Source: Bacillota bacterium
GTDB lineage: Bacteria > Bacillota > Limnochordia > JAAZLZ01
Length of the DNA: 32,001 bases
Assembly: GCA_012522085.1 (NCBI GenBank)
Contig: JAAYLE010000129.1
Coordinates: 1 to 32,001, forward strand
Reading direction: 5' to 3'
Positions 6,752 through 28,660 of this stretch are shown piece after piece. Each line of letters begins with the position of its first letter. Within the stretch, counting starts at the first letter, position 1. The notes below the pieces were generated by a model that worked only from the letters and a program-made list of their open reading frames with translations, searched no databases and was not told where the DNA came from. The position numbers and the translations under genes are program-made.

Positions 6752-6840
6752 AAGTGAATATCTGCCAAGGAAAGGATTGCGCGCCAGCCTGCCGAATAGT
6801 GGATCCTGAAGGGTTACGTGAGGCATTGGGAGGATTGGGC

Positions 6841-8025
6841 ATGAAAAAGCCGAGACTTGGCCTTGCAGTCTTCGCGGTAGTCGGCATCATCGTTTTAGTA
6901 CTGGTCGGAGTTAGGATCAACCAAGGGATCAAGAGCCGGGGGCAGGCGGTGAGCCAAATGGACTTACGACCCCGGATAGATCCAATCAGCGTCCAGGTGG
7001 AACTAGTGAGTCGAGGCACGGTGGAAGAGGTCGCCGTCCTTTCCGGCAGTCTGGAACCTTGCTACCAGGTGGATGTATCACCCCGCAGAGCGGGGCGCCT
7101 GGCTAGTGTGGCGGCGGAAGTTGGGCAGCGGGTCAAGCCGGGGGATGTCCTGGCGGTGATGGAACATGATGATCTGCTGCTGCAAGAGCAGCAGTCCCTC
7201 GCAGCCCTGGCGGCCAGCCGCGGGAGCCTTAAGCGGGCCCAGGCCCAGCGGGACAGGGTGCAGGCGGATTATGAGCGCATCAAACGGCTCTATGAGGAGC
7301 GAGCGGCCACCCAGCAGGAGCTGAAGAACGTCCAAAACCAGCTGGAAGAGGCCAATATCCAGCTGGAGATCGCCAAGGCTCAGCTCGATCAGGCCGAGGC
7401 CAACTACGCGCTGCTCCAGCTCCAGTTGAGTCAGGCCGTCATCGAAGCCCCTGTTGAGGGGGTCGTCATGGAGCTGCACGCGGTGCCAGGAAGTCAAGTG
7501 GGCGCCAACTCGCCCCTAGCGGCCATTGCCGGCATTGATCCCATTGAAGTTGTCTTTTTCATCTCCGAGCGGGATATCGGCCGCGTCCATAGCGACCAAG
7601 AGCTGACTGTCTACGTTGATGCCTTTCCCGACCGGGCCTTTCCCGGCGCAGTTGCTCGCTTGGGAGCGGCGATCGAACCCCGCACCCGCACTCTCCAGGT
7701 TAGGGGCCGGCTCCCCAACGAGGGACTCCTCCTTCGTCCCGGCATGTTCGCCCGGGTGGAGCTGGTGATGGCGCGGGCGGAGGAAGTCTTGACCATACCT
7801 CGGGAAGCTTTAATGACCAGCACAACCGGCTACTACGTTTACGTGGCCAAAGACGGCACGGCCCGAATGCAGACGATTCAGATAGGGCTCCAAGGCGCCG
7901 AGCAGGTCCAAGTCATCGCCGGGCTGCAAGAGGGGGATGCGGTCATCACCGTAGGCCAACAAAGGCTCCAAGATGGACGGCCAATCCGGGTCATCGACGT
8001 TAGCGATGGAGGGAGAGGCCGATGA
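6841..8025 (+). CDS. RND efflux periplasmic adaptor (membrane fusion protein)
   Basis: This 394-residue protein links an inner-membrane RND pump to an outer-membrane channel. It has an N-terminal membrane anchor (about 6-26, no lipobox), a first half of a lipoyl-like domain (VDVSPRRAGRLASV, then GQRVKPGDVLAVME), a long coiled-coil hairpin rich in Gln, Glu and Ala, the second lipoyl half (IEAPVEGVVMELHAVPGSQV), a beta-barrel domain ending in LLLRPGMFARVEL, and a membrane-proximal C-terminal domain. I chose ATG 6841 because GGGAGGATTGGGC precedes it and the anchor follows at once; the frame is open from 6754 but without a good site. Its stop overlaps the next start as ATGA, so translation of the pump is probably coupled. 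The exported compound cannot be predicted. Confidence 0.93.
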   Translation: MKKPRLGLAVFAVVGIIVLVLVGVRINQGIKSRGQAVSQMDLRPRIDPISVQVELVSRGTVEEVAVLSGSLEPCYQVDVSPRRAGRLASVAAEVGQRVKPGDVLAVMEHDDLLLQEQQSLAALAASRGSLKRAQAQRDRVQADYERIKRLYEERAATQQELKNVQNQLEEANIQLEIAKAQLDQAEANYALLQLQLSQAVIEAPVEGVVMELHAVPGSQVGANSPLAAIAGIDPIEVVFFISERDIGRVHSDQELTVYVDAFPDRAFPGAVARLGAAIEPRTRTLQVRGRLPNEGLLLRPGMFARVELVMARAEEVLTIPREALMTSTTGYYVYVAKDGTARMQTIQIGLQGAEQVQVIAGLQEGDAVITVGQQRLQDGRPIRVIDVSDGGRGR

Positions 8026-11000
8026 ACATCTCCCGCTTTGCCGTCCATCGTCCCGTGACCACCGCGATGATCTACATCGCGGTCACCCTCCTGGGGCTGT
8101 TTGCCCTCGGTCGGCTGGCCATCGATCTGATTCCCGAGCTGGCCTTTCCTTCCCTCAGCATAACCACTTCTTACTCCGGCGTTGCTCCGGAAGAGATCGA
8201 AAGCTTGATTACCATCCCCATCGAACAGGCCGTCAGCACCGTTAGCGGTGTGATCGGCATGGACTCTTTGTCCCGGGAAGGCAGCTCCCGCGTTACGCTG
8301 CGGTTCCCGTGGGGGACGGACTTGGAGGCGGTCACCAACGAGGTCCGGGCCAGTGTGGAGCGGGCCCGGTCTCGTCTGCCCTCAGAGGCGAGCGCCCCCT
8401 GGGTTGGGCGGTTTGACCCATCCCAGATGCCCATCATGACCCTTGGCCTGAGCGGCGAACTGGACTTGGCGGAGCTTCGCCGCCTAGCTGCAGAGGAAAT
8501 CACCTACTATCTTGAGCGGATCGATGGCGTGGCCGCAGTGACGGTCCAAGGGGGCCGCAGCCGGGAGGTCCGGGTGGAGCTGGACCAGGCTCGTCTGCAA
8601 GCCTACGGCCTTACCATCGAGCAGATCGTCCAGGCCATCAGGGCCGAGAATTTCAACGTCCCTGCGGGCAGGATCGTCGTCGGGCAGTCCCAGTTTTCCC
8701 TGCGTACTTTAGGGGAGTTGAGGGCCGTCGAAGAACTGGAAGCCATCCTCGTGGCCAATCGGGAGGGGGTGTCCATCCGGCTGGGGGACGTTGCCCAGGT
8801 CCGGCCGGTAACCGAAGATGCTGGCGCCATCGTTCGGGTCGACGGCATGCCGGGCGTGACTATTTCCATCCAGAAGCAGTCGGGCGCTAATACGGTGCGG
8901 GTGGCTGATGCCGTTCGCCAGACGGTGGATGAGCTGTCCCTCCGCTACCCGAACCTGCGCATCAGGCCCCTCAACGACAGCTCCCGCTTCATCCGCCAAG
9001 CGGTCAACAACGTAATGCGCGCGGGGATCATCGGCGGGCTGTTGGCGGCCTTGATCCTGCTCTTTTTCCTGGGGAGCCTTCGCTCAACCCTAATCATCTC
9101 CATTGCCATCCCCGTATCCATCATTACCTCGTTCATCCTGATCGATTGGGCGGGCATGACCTTGAACATCATGTCCTTGGGGGGCCTTGCCCTGGGGATT
9201 GGCATGCTGGTCGACAACTCCATTATCGTCTTGGAGAATATCTACAGACATCTTAGAGAGGGAAGGGCGCCAAAGGAGGCAGCTGTGGACGGCAGCGGCG
9301 AGATGGCCATGGCGGTCATCGCGTCCACCTTGACCACCCTGGCGGTCTTTCTTCCCTTGATGTATCTCACGGGGATGACGGGCATCCTGTTTCGGCAGTT
9401 GTCGCTGATGGTGGCCTTTTCGTTAACATGTTCATTGACAGTCGCCTTGACGCTGGTTCCTTTCCTTTGCTCCCGGCTGCTTAAGGCAGGGAGAAATGCT
9501 AGACATCTAGATCTGGTTCTCGCCGGCCTTGAGGAAGCCTATGGACACGTGTTGGCTAGTGCCGTCAGGCGCCCCGGAGTAGTGATTTTCACTGCCTGCC
9601 TGCTGATTTTGTTTAGCTTGGGACTCATCCCCTACCTGGGCAGCGAGTTTTCGCCTACCACCGATGAAGGGGAGTTTTCCATCAGTTTCTCCCTTCCGCC
9701 GGGAACCCTCCTGGGGACTACCGATGAAATGGTCCGTCGGGTTGAGCAGTTGGTGCGGGAGATGGTTCCGGAGCTGCAGTACATCAATGCCCGCGCCGGG
9801 TCAGGGGGAGGCCAGGGGGGAGGTATGGGCTTTGTGAACGTCACCCTGGTTCCCCGCAACCAACGGGCCAGGTCGACGCAGGAGATCATCGCGGAGGTAA
9901 GGGAAAAGCTGGCGGACATCCCCGGACCTACCTTTCGGGTGAGGGCCCAAAGCAGCTTCGCTGAACGGTTGGCCGCGGGCAGCCTTGGTGGTTCCTCAGA
10001 ACGCATCACCATCAATGTTCAGGGGCAGGATCTAGACTTGGTGCGGGCGGCGGCCGAGGACCTGCGGGAAATAGTCAGCCAAGTGCCCGGGGTGGTCAAC
10101 GCAGGCCTGAGTCGGGAAGAGACCCAGCCGGAATTCGTCCTCCGGGTCGATCGGCACCGGGCGTCGGAATTTGGGCTGACGACGTCGCAGGTGGCCAATG
10201 CGGTCCAAGCGGCTGTTCAAGGGCGCGTTGCCACCCAACTCCATGTCAACGGTCAGGAATACGGCGTTCGAGTGCAGCTTGCCGGTGCCGACAGCCTGTC
10301 GCCAAAGGAGATTGAGGTCTTGCCAGTCTCCATCGGAGGCGGAGCTTACGTCCCCCTTCACACCGTGGCCAGGTTGAGCCTGCAAGACAGCCCGGCGGCG
10401 ATTGAACGGCTTAACCAGAAGCGGACGGTGCGGGTGACCGCATCTCCCGAGGGGCGGGATCTAGGCAGCGTCATGGGGGACATCCAGGCTGCTTTGGCGG
10501 GCGTTGAACTGCCGGAAGGGGTGACCATCCATTATGGAGGGGAATGGGAAGAGCAGCAGCGGGCCTTTCGGGAGATGCTGACAGTGTTGTGTCTTGCCGT
10601 CTCCCTAGTCTACATCGTCATGGCTTGCCAGTTTGAATCCCTGTTGGATCCCCTTATTATCATGTTTTCCGTTCCCTTCGCGTTGGTAGGAGTCGTCATT
10701 ACGCTCCTCATCACCGGCACGCCCTTGACTACCCAGGCGCTGATGGGCCTTATCATGCTGGGGGGGATTGTGGTGAACAATGCCATCGTCCTTGTCGATT
10801 ACATAAATTTGCTCCGTTCGCGGGGAGCGTCCCTGGATGAAGCGGTCGTTGCCGGCGCTAAAACGAGGCTGCGCCCCATCTTGATGACGACGGGAACGAC
10901 TTGCCTGGCCCTGGTTCCCCTGGCCCTGGAACTGGGCGAAGGGGCGGAGATTCAGGCGCCCCTGGCCAGGACGGTCATTGGCGGTCTGTTGGCGGCAACC

Positions 11001-12374
11001 TTGGTCACCTTGGTTTTGATCCCCACCATTTATCGTGCAGTCCATCGCCGAGGAGTTCACCGGGCCGCTTCAGCTATGCTGGTGCTGATCTTGCTGCTGG
11101 CATCGCCTGGGGCTCTCGCCCACGGGGCCATCACCCTGGAAGAGGCCTTTGCCCAGGCCCTAGAGACTAACCATCGGCTGCTGCAGGCCCGCTGGAAATT
11201 GGCGGCGGCTGAGTCCAAGCTCAGGGAGCTGGAAGGGAGCCGAGGACCCCATCTGACCCTCGATGGCGAGTGGCAGGCGACCGAGCCCGTCCAACGGGCC
11301 GGGGTGGCGTTCACCGTGCAAGGGTCCCTGCCCACCACGGAGCCCATAAGCTGGCAGCTGGCCCGACTGGCTGTGGAAGGGGCCAAGGGGGAGCTGGCGG
11401 ATGAGGAAGAAGTCGTCAAGCTTGCTGTCCTGACGGCCTATGTCGATGTGTTAAAGAGCCAGGGGGCAGTCCAGGTGGCGAGGCTGGTTCAAGAACAGCT
11501 AGCGGCTTTAGTTGAGCAGGCCAGGAGGCGCAAGGAGCTGGGGATGGCGGGGGAGTTGGAGCTTCGGCAGGCCCAGGCCCAGTACCGGGCGGGGGAGCTC
11601 GCCTTGGCCAGGGCGGAAAACAGGCTGGCGCTGGCCCGGGCCCGTTTGGCCCAAGAAATGGGCGCCCCCCTGCCGGAGGAGGGTGAGCTGCTGCCGATAC
11701 CCCTCGATGCACTCGCAGTCGAAGTGGACGGCGCTTTAGATCGGCGCTGGGATGTTGCTCAGGCTCGGCTGCGGCTGAGGCAAGCGGAGCTGCAGGCCAA
11801 GGCAAGGATCCCGGGCGATCGACCGGCCCTATCTGTAAGCGGCAGTCTTCGGGGCGATGAGGGGAGCGCCAGGCTTGCCTGGGACACCAAGGGTCGGGCC
11901 CTATCCCTCACCGTGCAGCGGGACCTCCTCCAGTATGGCGATCGGCCCTCAGGGAGCTTCCAGGAGGAGGGCTGGTCGGTGAATGTGGGCATCAGCTGGC
12001 CCATCTTCGATGGAGGAGAGGAAAAGGAGCGCTCCCTCCAGGAAGAACTGGACCTGGAGCAGCTGCGATCCGCCTTGGCCCAGCAGGAGGTGTCGGCTTC
12101 CCTGGCGATTCAAGATGCCCTCCTGGCTGCCGAAGAAGCCGAGGCCCAGGTGGAGCTTGCTCATCTTGACTGGCAGATGGCTGAGGAACGGCTCAAGCTC
12201 GTGGAGGAAGGACTGGCCATCGGAGCGGAGACGACCCATAGGCTCCTTGAGGCCGAAATTGCGGTGGAGAGAGCTAAACAAGCTTGGCAGGAAGCTCAGT
12301 GGAATGCGCTGCTGGCCCGGGCGCGGCTTCGTCGGGCGGCAGGACAGCCGGTGTGGATGGAAGGGGAGGATTGA
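8022..12374 (+). CDS. RND efflux pump fused in frame to a TolC-family outer membrane factor
   Basis: This is a single 1450-codon frame. Residues 1-1018 form a complete HAE1/AcrB-type RND transporter: N-terminal cytoplasmic start MNISRFAVHRPVTT, two large periplasmic loops, twelve expected membrane helices, and the helix-4 motif GMLVDNSIIVLEN near residue 397. Residues 1019-1033 look like a signal peptide (MLVLILLLASPGALA) preceded by Arg/His. Residues 1034-1450 form a TolC-type outer membrane efflux protein with both helical repeats and both beta-strand regions (near HLTLDGEW and ISWPIFDGG). No stop or good ribosome binding site separates the two parts; the nearest GAGGAG is about 20 bases before the internal ATG at 11076. 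The product could be cleaved after Ala1033. ATG 8022 overlaps the adaptor stop by 4 bases. The next gene begins 2 bases after the stop. Confidence 0.92.
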   Translation: MNISRFAVHRPVTTAMIYIAVTLLGLFALGRLAIDLIPELAFPSLSITTSYSGVAPEEIESLITIPIEQAVSTVSGVIGMDSLSREGSSRVTLRFPWGTDLEAVTNEVRASVERARSRLPSEASAPWVGRFDPSQMPIMTLGLSGELDLAELRRLAAEEITYYLERIDGVAAVTVQGGRSREVRVELDQARLQAYGLTIEQIVQAIRAENFNVPAGRIVVGQSQFSLRTLGELRAVEELEAILVANREGVSIRLGDVAQVRPVTEDAGAIVRVDGMPGVTISIQKQSGANTVRVADAVRQTVDELSLRYPNLRIRPLNDSSRFIRQAVNNVMRAGIIGGLLAALILLFFLGSLRSTLIISIAIPVSIITSFILIDWAGMTLNIMSLGGLALGIGMLVDNSIIVLENIYRHLREGRAPKEAAVDGSGEMAMAVIASTLTTLAVFLPLMYLTGMTGILFRQLSLMVAFSLTCSLTVALTLVPFLCSRLLKAGRNARHLDLVLAGLEEAYGHVLASAVRRPGVVIFTACLLILFSLGLIPYLGSEFSPTTDEGEFSISFSLPPGTLLGTTDEMVRRVEQLVREMVPELQYINARAGSGGGQGGGMGFVNVTLVPRNQRARSTQEIIAEVREKLADIPGPTFRVRAQSSFAERLAAGSLGGSSERITINVQGQDLDLVRAAAEDLREIVSQVPGVVNAGLSREETQPEFVLRVDRHRASEFGLTTSQVANAVQAAVQGRVATQLHVNGQEYGVRVQLAGADSLSPKEIEVLPVSIGGGAYVPLHTVARLSLQDSPAAIERLNQKRTVRVTASPEGRDLGSVMGDIQAALAGVELPEGVTIHYGGEWEEQQRAFREMLTVLCLAVSLVYIVMACQFESLLDPLIIMFSVPFALVGVVITLLITGTPLTTQALMGLIMLGGIVVNNAIVLVDYINLLRSRGASLDEAVVAGAKTRLRPILMTTGTTCLALVPLALELGEGAEIQAPLARTVIGGLLAATLVTLVLIPTIYRAVHRRGVHRAASAMLVLILLLASPGALAHGAITLEEAFAQALETNHRLLQARWKLAAAESKLRELEGSRGPHLTLDGEWQATEPVQRAGVAFTVQGSLPTTEPISWQLARLAVEGAKGELADEEEVVKLAVLTAYVDVLKSQGAVQVARLVQEQLAALVEQARRRKELGMAGELELRQAQAQYRAGELALARAENRLALARARLAQEMGAPLPEEGELLPIPLDALAVEVDGALDRRWDVAQARLRLRQAELQAKARIPGDRPALSVSGSLRGDEGSARLAWDTKGRALSLTVQRDLLQYGDRPSGSFQEEGWSVNVGISWPIFDGGEEKERSLQEELDLEQLRSALAQQEVSASLAIQDALLAAEEAEAQVELAHLDWQMAEERLKLVEEGLAIGAETTHRLLEAEIAVERAKQAWQEAQWNALLARARLRRAAGQPVWMEGED
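11076..11120 (+). other. Internal signal-peptide-like segment at the RND/TolC junction
   Basis: These codons encode a hydrophobic stretch ending in the signal peptidase I-type site ALA before HG. The preceding residues (HRRGVHRAAS) are positively charged, which fits a cytoplasmic side. After twelve RND helices the chain would be in the cytoplasm, so this segment would cross outwards and place the TolC part in the periplasm. Cleavage is inferred. Confidence 0.65.
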
Positions 12375-12376
12375 GC

Positions 12377-13414
12377 ATGCGACGATTCATCTTGGTGATA
12401 CTAGCGGTTATCATGGCCGCTGGCACGGCCAGCGGGGAAGAAGCTCCTTTGCTCACCATGGAAGAAGCTGTGGCCATTGCCCAGCGGGAGGGCATTGCCG
12501 CGGCGTTGGCTGATCTATCCCTGGAAGAGGCGCGCCTTGCCTACATGGAAGTACAGGCCAACCAGATCCTGCGGCCCTCAGTGATTGCCCAGCAGCAGGG
12601 GGAAGATGCCTGGGAGGCGGCCCAGGCTGCCCGGCAGCTGGCGGAGCTCGATTTGGCCCTGCAGGTGGAGCAAGCTTATTACGACGTACTAAGGACCGAC
12701 CTGGCCATCGATTTGGCCAAGCGGGCACTGGAGCAGGCGGAGGCCCAGCTGGAATCAACCCAGGTGCGCCACGGCCTGGGAATGGTATCCGATGTGGAAC
12801 TATTAGCTGCCCAGTCCCAGGCGGCAACTGCCCAGCTAGAAGTCAATCGGGCCGAGGCCAACGGCGCCACCGCCCGGATGCGCTTCAATCGGCTCCTCGG
12901 CAGGGAGCTGGATGCACCCTTTCGTCTGGTTGATGAATTTGCCTACGAGCCGGTGGAGATAGACCTAGAAGATGCCCTGTCCTCGGCCCTGAGCACGAGG
13001 ATCGAATTGAAACGGGCCCGGGATGCCCTTGCCTTGCGGGAGAAGGAGCTGATGGTCAACGACAATGAGTATACCCCCAGCTTGACCATCGCCAAGAGCC
13101 GCCTCGCCTTGGAGCGGGCCAAGGCCGAGCTCAAAGAGCGGGAAATCGACATTATCCTGGAAGTGAGACAAAACTACCAGGCGGTCATTGAAGGCCAGGA
13201 GCGGATCCCGATCCTCGAGACCAACCTGGCCAGGGCTCAAGAAACGTTGCGGATCACCGGCATCCGTTATGAAGCGGGCGTGATAACCGCCATTGACCTC
13301 ATCGATGCCCAGCGGGCGGCCTTCCAGGCGGAGCTGCAGCTCATCCAAGGCATTTTTGATTATAATATCGCGCTGGCCCGCTTCTATCGGAGCGCCGGCC
13401 TGCCGGCCCGCTAG
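12377..13414 (+). CDS. TolC-like protein lacking the beta-barrel segments
   Basis: At 345 residues this is shorter than usual TolC-family proteins (about 400-490). A signal peptide (about 1-20, ending near ASG) is followed by TMEEAVAIAQREG, the normal opening of the fold, and two repeats of long helices with the YYDVLRTDLAI and RYEAGVITAIDLIDAQRA motifs. Each repeat should carry a beta-hairpin of roughly 40-60 residues that builds the outer-membrane barrel. Here those places hold only short links (LRPSVIAQQQGE and VNDNEYTPSLT). The protein would therefore keep the periplasmic helical tunnel without an obvious membrane barrel. GGGGAGGATTGAGC precedes the ATG, and it is the last gene of the efflux operon. 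It might complete or extend the channel of the fused TolC, or act on its own. The family is secure, the role open. Confidence 0.85.
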   Translation: MRRFILVILAVIMAAGTASGEEAPLLTMEEAVAIAQREGIAAALADLSLEEARLAYMEVQANQILRPSVIAQQQGEDAWEAAQAARQLAELDLALQVEQAYYDVLRTDLAIDLAKRALEQAEAQLESTQVRHGLGMVSDVELLAAQSQAATAQLEVNRAEANGATARMRFNRLLGRELDAPFRLVDEFAYEPVEIDLEDALSSALSTRIELKRARDALALREKELMVNDNEYTPSLTIAKSRLALERAKAELKEREIDIILEVRQNYQAVIEGQERIPILETNLARAQETLRITGIRYEAGVITAIDLIDAQRAAFQAELQLIQGIFDYNIALARFYRSAGLPAR

Positions 13415-26525: not shown

Positions 26526-27284
26526 ATGAAGGGGCAGCCGGTGCAGCCTTTGCTACGATTCGGCATTGAGAAGGCGGACTCCCCGGTGGTCGCGTTGGCA
26601 GGAAATCCCAACACCGGGAAGACGACGATCTTTAATGCCCTGACTGGACTTAATCAACATACGGGCAATTGGCCGGGCAAGACTGTTGTCCAAGCGAGGG
26701 GGAAATACTGCTATGGAGGCCAGGAAGTGGTCTTGGTTGACCTGCCGGGCACATACTCCCTCCTGGCCAATTCAGTGGAGGAGCAAATTGCCCGGGATTT
26801 CATCTACTTCGGTCGACCTGCGGCCACCATCGTCGTTGCCGACGCCACCTGTCTGGAGCGCAATTTGAATCTGCTGCTGCAGGTGGTGGAAATAACTCCC
26901 TTCGTCATCCTTTGCATCAACCTAATCGATGAAGCCAGACGCAAGCTGATCAAGATCGATTTTGCCAGGCTCCAGGAGCGACTGGGCATCCCCGTGGTCC
27001 CCGTATCGGGCCGGACCGGCGAAGGGTTGGAGCTGCTAAAAAAGACGGTGCTGGAGATGGTCACCGGGCAGCTCAGACCCTCGCCCAAGCAGATCATCTA
27101 CGACGGCGAAGTGGAAGGGGCCCTCCACCAAATTCTGCCGGAAATCAAGGGCATCGTCGGGGATGACGCAACTAGCCGCTGGCTGGCCTTGCGCCTGTTG
27201 GAAGGAGACGAGACGGTGGTCCAGGGCATACAGCACTATCTGACGACCGATCCTCCCCCGAGGCTCGAGGAGGTGTTGGCATGA
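26526..27284 (+). CDS. feoB: FeoB GTPase domain protein (split FeoB, N-terminal half)
   Basis: This 252-residue protein carries only the cytosolic part of FeoB. The G1 loop is GNPNTGKT (26-33), a G2-type threonine lies in GNWPGKTV, G3 is DLPGTYSL (from Asp72), G4 is NLID where many GTPases have NKxD (normal variation for FeoB), and G5 is near SGRTGEG. A helical domain of the GDI type follows. It should power or gate iron(II) import by the membrane half encoded next. ATG 26526 has GGAGGG upstream. The stop overlaps the next start as ATGA. In most bacteria both halves are one polypeptide. Confidence 0.93.
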   Translation: MKGQPVQPLLRFGIEKADSPVVALAGNPNTGKTTIFNALTGLNQHTGNWPGKTVVQARGKYCYGGQEVVLVDLPGTYSLLANSVEEQIARDFIYFGRPAATIVVADATCLERNLNLLLQVVEITPFVILCINLIDEARRKLIKIDFARLQERLGIPVVPVSGRTGEGLELLKKTVLEMVTGQLRPSPKQIIYDGEVEGALHQILPEIKGIVGDDATSRWLALRLLEGDETVVQGIQHYLTTDPPPRLEEVLA

Positions 27285-28660
27285 GCGTGGATCTTGGCCG
27301 GATCCTGCAGCGAGCCCAGGACCTTTCCTGTGGTGAAGACGCCGTGCGGGATAAAGTCGTTGCGCGGATTTACCAGGAGGCCGAGTCCCTGGCAAGCGAA
27401 GTCGTCATGGCCGAAAAACCGGCCAGGGACTGGGACACTTTGATCGACGATGTCCTCACCTCGAAGAGGTTTGGCTACCCCTCGATGCTGGCCTTGCTGG
27501 CCTTCGTCCTTTGGCTGACCATCAGCGGCGCCAATCTTCCATCTCAGCTGCTCGCCCGCCTCCTCTTCGCGGGCGAAGAGGGGCTGAGCCGTCTCTTTCT
27601 CTCGTTTGGGGCTCCGGACTGGCTCCATGGCCTGTTGGTCCTTGGCGTCTATCGCTGCCTGGCCTGGGTGGTGTCCGTCATGCTGCCGCCAATGGCCATT
27701 TTCTTTCCCCTCTTCACCCTCCTCGAAGATCTTGGCTACCTGCCTCGGGTAGCCTTTAACTTGGACGGCTTTTTCCAGAAAGCGGGGGCCCACGGCAAAC
27801 AGGCCCTGACCATGAGCATGGGCTTTGGCTGCAACGCGGCAGGAGTAATCGCCTGCCGCATTATCGAGTCGCCCCGGGAGCGGTTAATCGCCATTTTGAC
27901 CAACAACTTCGTTCCCTGCAACGGCCGCTTTCCCACGCTAATCGCCATGAGCAACATCTTCTTGGGAGCTATGGCCCTTAACGGCAGCTCCTTTCTCGCC
28001 GTCTTGCTGGTGGCCGGGTTGGTGGTGGGCGGCATCGCCATCACCTTAGTGGTCTCGAGGCTCCTGTCCGCTACTCTACTGAAGGGAATCCCGTCCCATT
28101 TTGCCCTAGAGCTGCCCCCTTACCGGCCGCCCCAAGTGCTCCAGGTCATCCTCCGCTCCGTTTTCGATCGGACCCTCTTCGTCCTTTGGCGAGCGGTGAA
28201 GGTGGCCGCTCCCGCGGGCGCCGTCGCGTGGGGGCTGGCCAACATCCATGTTGACGGACTTAGCCTCCTCGGTCACACGGCCCAGGTCCTAGAGCCTTTA
28301 GGTGCGGCCATGGGGCTTGACGGGGTTATCCTGCTTGCCTTCATCCTGGGGCTTCCGGCCAATGAGATCGTCATTCCCATCATCCTGATGGGCTACCTGT
28401 CCGCCGGCGCCATGCTGGAATTAGAGGGCCTGCCGGCTCTGCGCGAGCTGTTGTTGGCTAACGGCTGGACCTGGGTGACGGCCTTGAATATGATGCTTTT
28501 CTCCCTGCTCCATTTTCCCTGCGGCACCACCTTGCTCACCATCCGCAAGGAGACCCAGAGCTGGAAATGGACTCTGCTGGCCGCCCTCATACCGACACTG
28601 ATCGGTACAGCTGTCTGCATTCTCGTGGCCCAGGGGGCAAGACTTGTGGGGCTGGCCTAG
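27281..28660 (+). CDS. feoB: FeoB membrane permease protein (split FeoB, C-terminal half)
   Basis: This 459-residue membrane half of FeoB contains two Gate (nucleoside-recognition) domains. Family motifs include SMGFGCNAAGV with the first conserved Cys, NNFVPCNGRFPTLI with the second, ILGLPANEIVIPII, and HFPCGTTLLTIRKET. It carries iron(II) across the inner membrane together with the GTPase half. ATG 27281 overlaps the upstream stop by 4 bases and has its own AGGAGGTG at 27268-27275, so the split is real and not a frameshift. The regulator gene follows after 21 bases. Confidence 0.93.
   Translation: MSVDLGRILQRAQDLSCGEDAVRDKVVARIYQEAESLASEVVMAEKPARDWDTLIDDVLTSKRFGYPSMLALLAFVLWLTISGANLPSQLLARLLFAGEEGLSRLFLSFGAPDWLHGLLVLGVYRCLAWVVSVMLPPMAIFFPLFTLLEDLGYLPRVAFNLDGFFQKAGAHGKQALTMSMGFGCNAAGVIACRIIESPRERLIAILTNNFVPCNGRFPTLIAMSNIFLGAMALNGSSFLAVLLVAGLVVGGIAITLVVSRLLSATLLKGIPSHFALELPPYRPPQVLQVILRSVFDRTLFVLWRAVKVAAPAGAVAWGLANIHVDGLSLLGHTAQVLEPLGAAMGLDGVILLAFILGLPANEIVIPIILMGYLSAGAMLELEGLPALRELLLANGWTWVTALNMMLFSLLHFPCGTTLLTIRKETQSWKWTLLAALIPTLIGTAVCILVAQGARLVGLA

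Follow-up and report, generated by a model that had tools for sequence, protein, structure and literature searches.

A TolC-fold protein without membrane strands is encoded beside full TolC in pump operons of diderm Bacillota

The operon described here encodes a periplasmic adaptor, an RND permease fused to TolC, and a second, shorter TolC-like protein. It lies in a window of 32,001 nucleotides, the whole stretch of DNA analysed, from a genome of the Limnochordia. The shorter protein and its relatives are called SHORT, and complete TolC proteins are called FULL. The features are the following.

6754..8025, + strand: periplasmic adaptor (HlyD/RND_mfp), overlapping the start of the RND gene
8022..12374, + strand: fusion of an RND permease (about residues 1-1012) with a complete TolC (FULL)
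11055..11120, + strand: hydrophobic stretch joining RND to TolC; it ends in ALA, with HG following (from sequence and hydropathy)
about 11121..12374, + strand: TolC part of this fusion, whose two beta sites both carry long segments
12377..13414, + strand: SHORT, a barrel-less TolC-fold protein of 345 amino acids with an N-terminal signal-like segment
12560..12574, + strand: link 1 of SHORT, residues 62-66, just before P67-S68, in place of the first beta-hairpin (from AlphaFold2 and the fixed anchor distance)
12776..12790, + strand: periplasmic tip turn 1 of SHORT, residues 134-138, around G135, at the canonical adaptor-docking position
13067..13078, + strand: link 2 of SHORT, residues 231-234 (EYTP), in place of the second beta-hairpin (from AlphaFold2 and alignment; Y-T-P is conserved in the class)
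13274..13288, + strand: periplasmic tip turn 2 of SHORT, residues 300-304, around G301

The RND permease and its TolC form a single gene in this genome and in two close relatives. The same RND::TolC fusion is found in L012 and L013, whose SHORT proteins are 93% and 90% identical. To judge from its sequence, the hydrophobic junction between the two domains resembles an internal signal peptide. OEP-like matches also lie within open frames of 1494 and 1505 amino acids in two other genomes (G134:C56:19275-20306 and G283:C52:83771-84793), and these may be additional RND::TolC fusions from other diderm Bacillota. Another OEP-like match lies within an open frame of 2004 amino acids (G336:C3:77503-77817). 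Elsewhere in the window, FeoB is encoded in two adjacent ORFs (26526-28660), with the G domain in 26526-27284 and the membrane part in 27281-28660.

SHORT is encoded by an intact gene and contains both helical repeats of TolC. Its ATG at 12377 is 2 bases past the TGA of the fusion and is preceded by GGGGAGG, a strong ribosome-binding site; the frame is intact to the stop at 13414. The N-terminus, MRRFILVILAVIMAAGTASG, looks like a signal peptide by eye. OEP (PF02321) is the sole Pfam family on the protein, matching in two stretches that correspond to both repeats (E 1.5e-30), and a profile of 33 SHORT relatives matches E. coli TolC (E 6e-25). No HlyD or Biotin_lipoyl domain was matched by Pfam, and SHORT thus lacks the barrel-sandwich/lipoyl domain of a periplasmic adaptor. 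An AlphaFold2 monomer model (7-row alignment, mean pLDDT 78.8, with pLDDT below 50 for residues 43-74) has helices at 28-61, 67-133, 139-174, 197-230 (with a break at 208), 235-299 and 305-340, of which the long tunnel helices are 67 and 65 residues. Foldseek comparison of this model with the PDB gave 44 matches at E<=0.001, all of them TolC/OprM/CusC-type channels, and the next match has an E value of 0.11. The original prediction that both TolC repeats are present is therefore borne out, and neither the Pfam search nor the significant PDB matches point to a family other than TolC.

SHORT is a TolC-fold protein minus both beta-hairpins, with no part that could insert into a membrane. Where the hairpins should be, the model has turns of about 4-5 residues and no strands, while the corresponding stretches of the fused TolC number about 36 and 69 residues, compared with 5 and 4 in SHORT; the neighbor keeps its beta segments, as had been proposed. 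Four membrane-spanning beta strands per subunit are not found in SHORT, which has links only about 5 and 4 residues long in their place. AlphaFold2 gave poor beta regions for the fused TolC, without clear hairpins, and for this reason the conclusion that SHORT has no strands is based on how short its links are and on their conservation in relatives.

Link lengths are nearly constant among SHORT relatives, showing that SHORT is neither a degenerate one-off nor a single TolC that happens to be strand-less. Distances were measured between anchors corresponding to R53-V97 and E224-V263 of SHORT. They are 44/39 (40-43/39 in some) in every one of the 86 short copies that were aligned from class loci, while full TolCs in class loci have 72-148/66-144 between the same anchors, truncated frames being left out. 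This agrees with the earlier claim that short links have replaced both hairpins. Link 2 carries a conserved N-D-Y-T-P-like motif across the class, and the tip positions are conserved and TolC-like in the alignment. A four-row SHORT profile matches 70 of the 73 class genomes at E<=1e-6, a count in which the matches include full TolCs too. Several families, among them f44, are Negativicutes-like by inference; they have full TolCs with distances of about 79-96/76-81, and no SHORT was found in the f44 loci sampled. Since the short form occurs widely in both class and phylum and is found in MacB-type ABC operons as well, it is an old, conserved protein. The original description of a TolC that has lost its strands was right about the missing hairpins but too narrow, as this distribution shows. 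The missing membrane part could also suggest a functionless, decayed TolC duplicate, but the intact frames, strong ribosome-binding site, near-invariant links and motifs conserved over the class make decay very improbable.

The host genome has the marker of a two-membrane cell and a second copy of the operon. BamA-type Omp85 was used as this marker, and the 2.0-Mb draft genome encodes one (G000:C203:6155-6994, E 3.8e-54); Limnochordia have been described as diderm (PMC11456536). A second operon, on contig C133, has the order adaptor-RND-SHORT-FULL, and its FULL gene is interrupted by the contig end. A C-terminal fragment of TolC lies at an end of contig C178 and is probably the rest of this gene.

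Nearly every SHORT gene in the sampled loci of diderm Bacillota is paired with FULL. The counts are of distinct copies in fetched loci, which were picked from profile matches and are not random samples. FULL was scored as adjacent at up to 500 bp and as near at up to 7 kb, in both cases only if on the same strand, and weak adaptor matches were not counted. Among sampled BamA-positive Bacillota, 110 of 114 SHORT copies have FULL adjacent (101) or near (9). Within class loci 75 of 84 SHORT copies have an adjacent FULL, five more have one within 7 kb, and four have none; in other BamA-positive Bacillota all 30 are paired (26 adjacent, 4 within 7 kb). FULL is downstream of SHORT in 95 of the 101 adjacent cases, and the order in the window, with SHORT after FULL, is the reverse of the usual one. 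The contexts are RND operons, mostly adaptor-RND-SHORT-FULL, and ABC operons that gene sizes and the adaptor match mark as MacB-like; short homologues beside RND genes, a further expectation of the original prediction, are thus common. Three class genomes that consist of a single contig have SHORT:FULL ratios of 1:1, 2:2 and 1:1. Two other diderm one-contig genomes have 2 SHORT to 3 FULL each, every SHORT being accompanied by a FULL and one FULL being extra. No FULL was detected near four of the 114 copies, one in L094, one in L119 and two in L098, where the sequence ends near one of the copies. The two copies in L098 (1547-2611 and 5204-6256) are on one short contig with MacB-like genes. A 952-aa ORF in L109 was considered as a SHORT-FULL fusion and rejected, as SHORT is in another frame there. 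No report of a SHORT-like protein paired with full TolC in diderms was found in the open-access literature, nor any paper there with both TolC and Limnochorda.

The pairing suggests that these efflux pumps have four kinds of part rather than three. We put the chances at about even that TolC comes here in two parts and that SHORT is its helical tunnel, forming a periplasmic segment between the adaptor and FULL. SHORT would be secreted and would trimerise into an alpha-barrel of about 10 nm, a length based on the 67 and 65 residues predicted for its tunnel helices. Its conserved tips would dock on the adaptor, as in ordinary TolC, and its short top links would face a FULL trimer anchored in the outer membrane. 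The result would be a longer duct of pump, adaptor, SHORT and FULL. Extension of the periplasmic conduit had been suggested originally, and it is the best reading because SHORT is paired with full TolC in 110 of the 114 diderm cases. Tip positions were compared with canonical TolC by mean BLOSUM62 score, which is 1.15/1.29 for SHORT and 0.72/0.89 for FULL, so that the SHORT tips are the more canonical; this difference is modest and not tip-specific, FULL being more divergent everywhere. SHORT-FULL covariation was analyzed with 112 pairs (Neff 72), a data set in which an intra-SHORT control had none of its 40 top pairs fitting the helical hairpins.

Near-obligatory pairing would also be expected if SHORT and FULL were mixed in one ring, for example 3+3, in which SHORT would supply helices only and FULL all of the barrel strands, altering the tunnel width. 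Many FULL beta segments (72-148/66-144) exceed the canonical lengths (about 79-96/76-81), so that extra strands are conceivable. However, a mixed trimer looks less likely because the canonical 12-strand barrel requires four strands from each of three protomers, and the helical domain of SHORT is as long as that of a normal TolC. Overall, mixing appears unlikely. The pairing would likewise fit an assembly helper or plug for FULL that stays outside the finished duct, but the tunnel helices of SHORT are full-length and its tips TolC-like, and monoderms retain the barrel-less form though they have no FULL to assemble. A helper role is the less probable of these two.

Barrel-less relatives of SHORT are found without FULL in Bacillota that lack BamA. 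Omp85 is present in 77 of 300 Bacillota genomes, and the SHORT profile finds a match at E<=1e-10 in 199 of the 300; comparison of the two lists places about 124 of the 199 matches in Omp85-negative genomes. Among the 22 barrel-less copies from 20 sampled BamA-negative loci, none has FULL nearby and 18 are directly beside an adaptor or RND gene. In these monoderm copies link 2 is 39-42 and link 1 is 50-72, or 141-145 in two. The two with the longest link 1 (L157:3266-4771 and L160:2426-3829) represent a second monoderm kind of barrel-less protein, helical by eye, with an adaptor adjoining. These solitary relatives, together with the few SHORT copies without a nearby FULL, would fit a separate exit duct into the periplasm or cell wall, used as an alternative to FULL on the same pump in a monoderm-like manner. 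Against this, 110 of 114 SHORT copies in diderms have FULL with them, most often as the gene that follows, and a separate duct is about as doubtful as the mixed ring, if slightly more so. In the two-part TolC, the barrel-less form alone would suffice in monoderm relatives, which have no outer membrane.

The phylogeny of SHORT and its monoderm relatives is compatible with more than one arrangement. In a FastTree phylogeny one group (support 0.77) comprises 48 SHORT and 19 monoderm copies, and within it the monoderm copies form a nested group. In a quick IQ-TREE run 11 FULL copies, most of them long-branched, fall among SHORT, and all 22 monoderm copies form one group (SH-aLRT 98). Neither a clade of SHORT plus monoderm copies (p 0.226) nor one of SHORT by itself (p 0.205) was rejected by AU tests. 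A tentative scenario, with a chance well short of even, is that diderm Bacillota such as the Limnochordia run four-part pumps with a two-piece TolC, and that loss of the outer membrane dropped the membrane piece while the barrel-less piece stayed and gave rise to the monoderm TolC-like proteins.

A nearly obligatory barrel-less partner would mean that pumps are built differently across a large group of bacteria with two membranes. The pairing gives a handle on how an efflux pump could survive the loss of the outer membrane. It also bears on a published puzzle, the presence of TolC-like proteins in single-membraned Firmicutes without barrel-assembly machinery.

Textbooks present TolC as the exit duct for drug efflux. 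SHORT shares with the TolC/outer membrane factor family (E. coli TolC, OprM, CusC) the two OEP repeats, the long tunnel helices, the tip turns, and an operon with adaptor and RND genes. It differs in having no beta-hairpins and hence no membrane barrel, and in diderms it nearly always occurs with a full TolC. TolC-like proteins are widespread in pump operons of monoderm Firmicutes, and a homology model of the C. difficile protein has an omission in the beta-barrel domain; an S-layer location has been proposed for these proteins, and their assembly without BAM has been raised as a question (PMC8809574, PLoS Biol 2022). They resemble SHORT in their pump operons and reduced beta-barrel domain (PMC8809574). 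In the monoderm loci sampled here link 2 is similar to that of SHORT, but link 1 is longer. The hosts of the monoderm proteins have no outer membrane and no full TolC partner, while the host of SHORT has a BamA-type Omp85. Omission of the barrel in a monoderm TolC-like protein was thus already known from C. difficile (PMC8809574), and the pairing with full TolC in diderms appears, within the open-access literature, to be new. E. coli AcrAB-TolC with YbjP likewise has an extra component on a TolC pump (PMC13095208, PMC13082787); as described there YbjP is a TolC-binding lipoprotein, while SHORT is a second TolC-fold tunnel.
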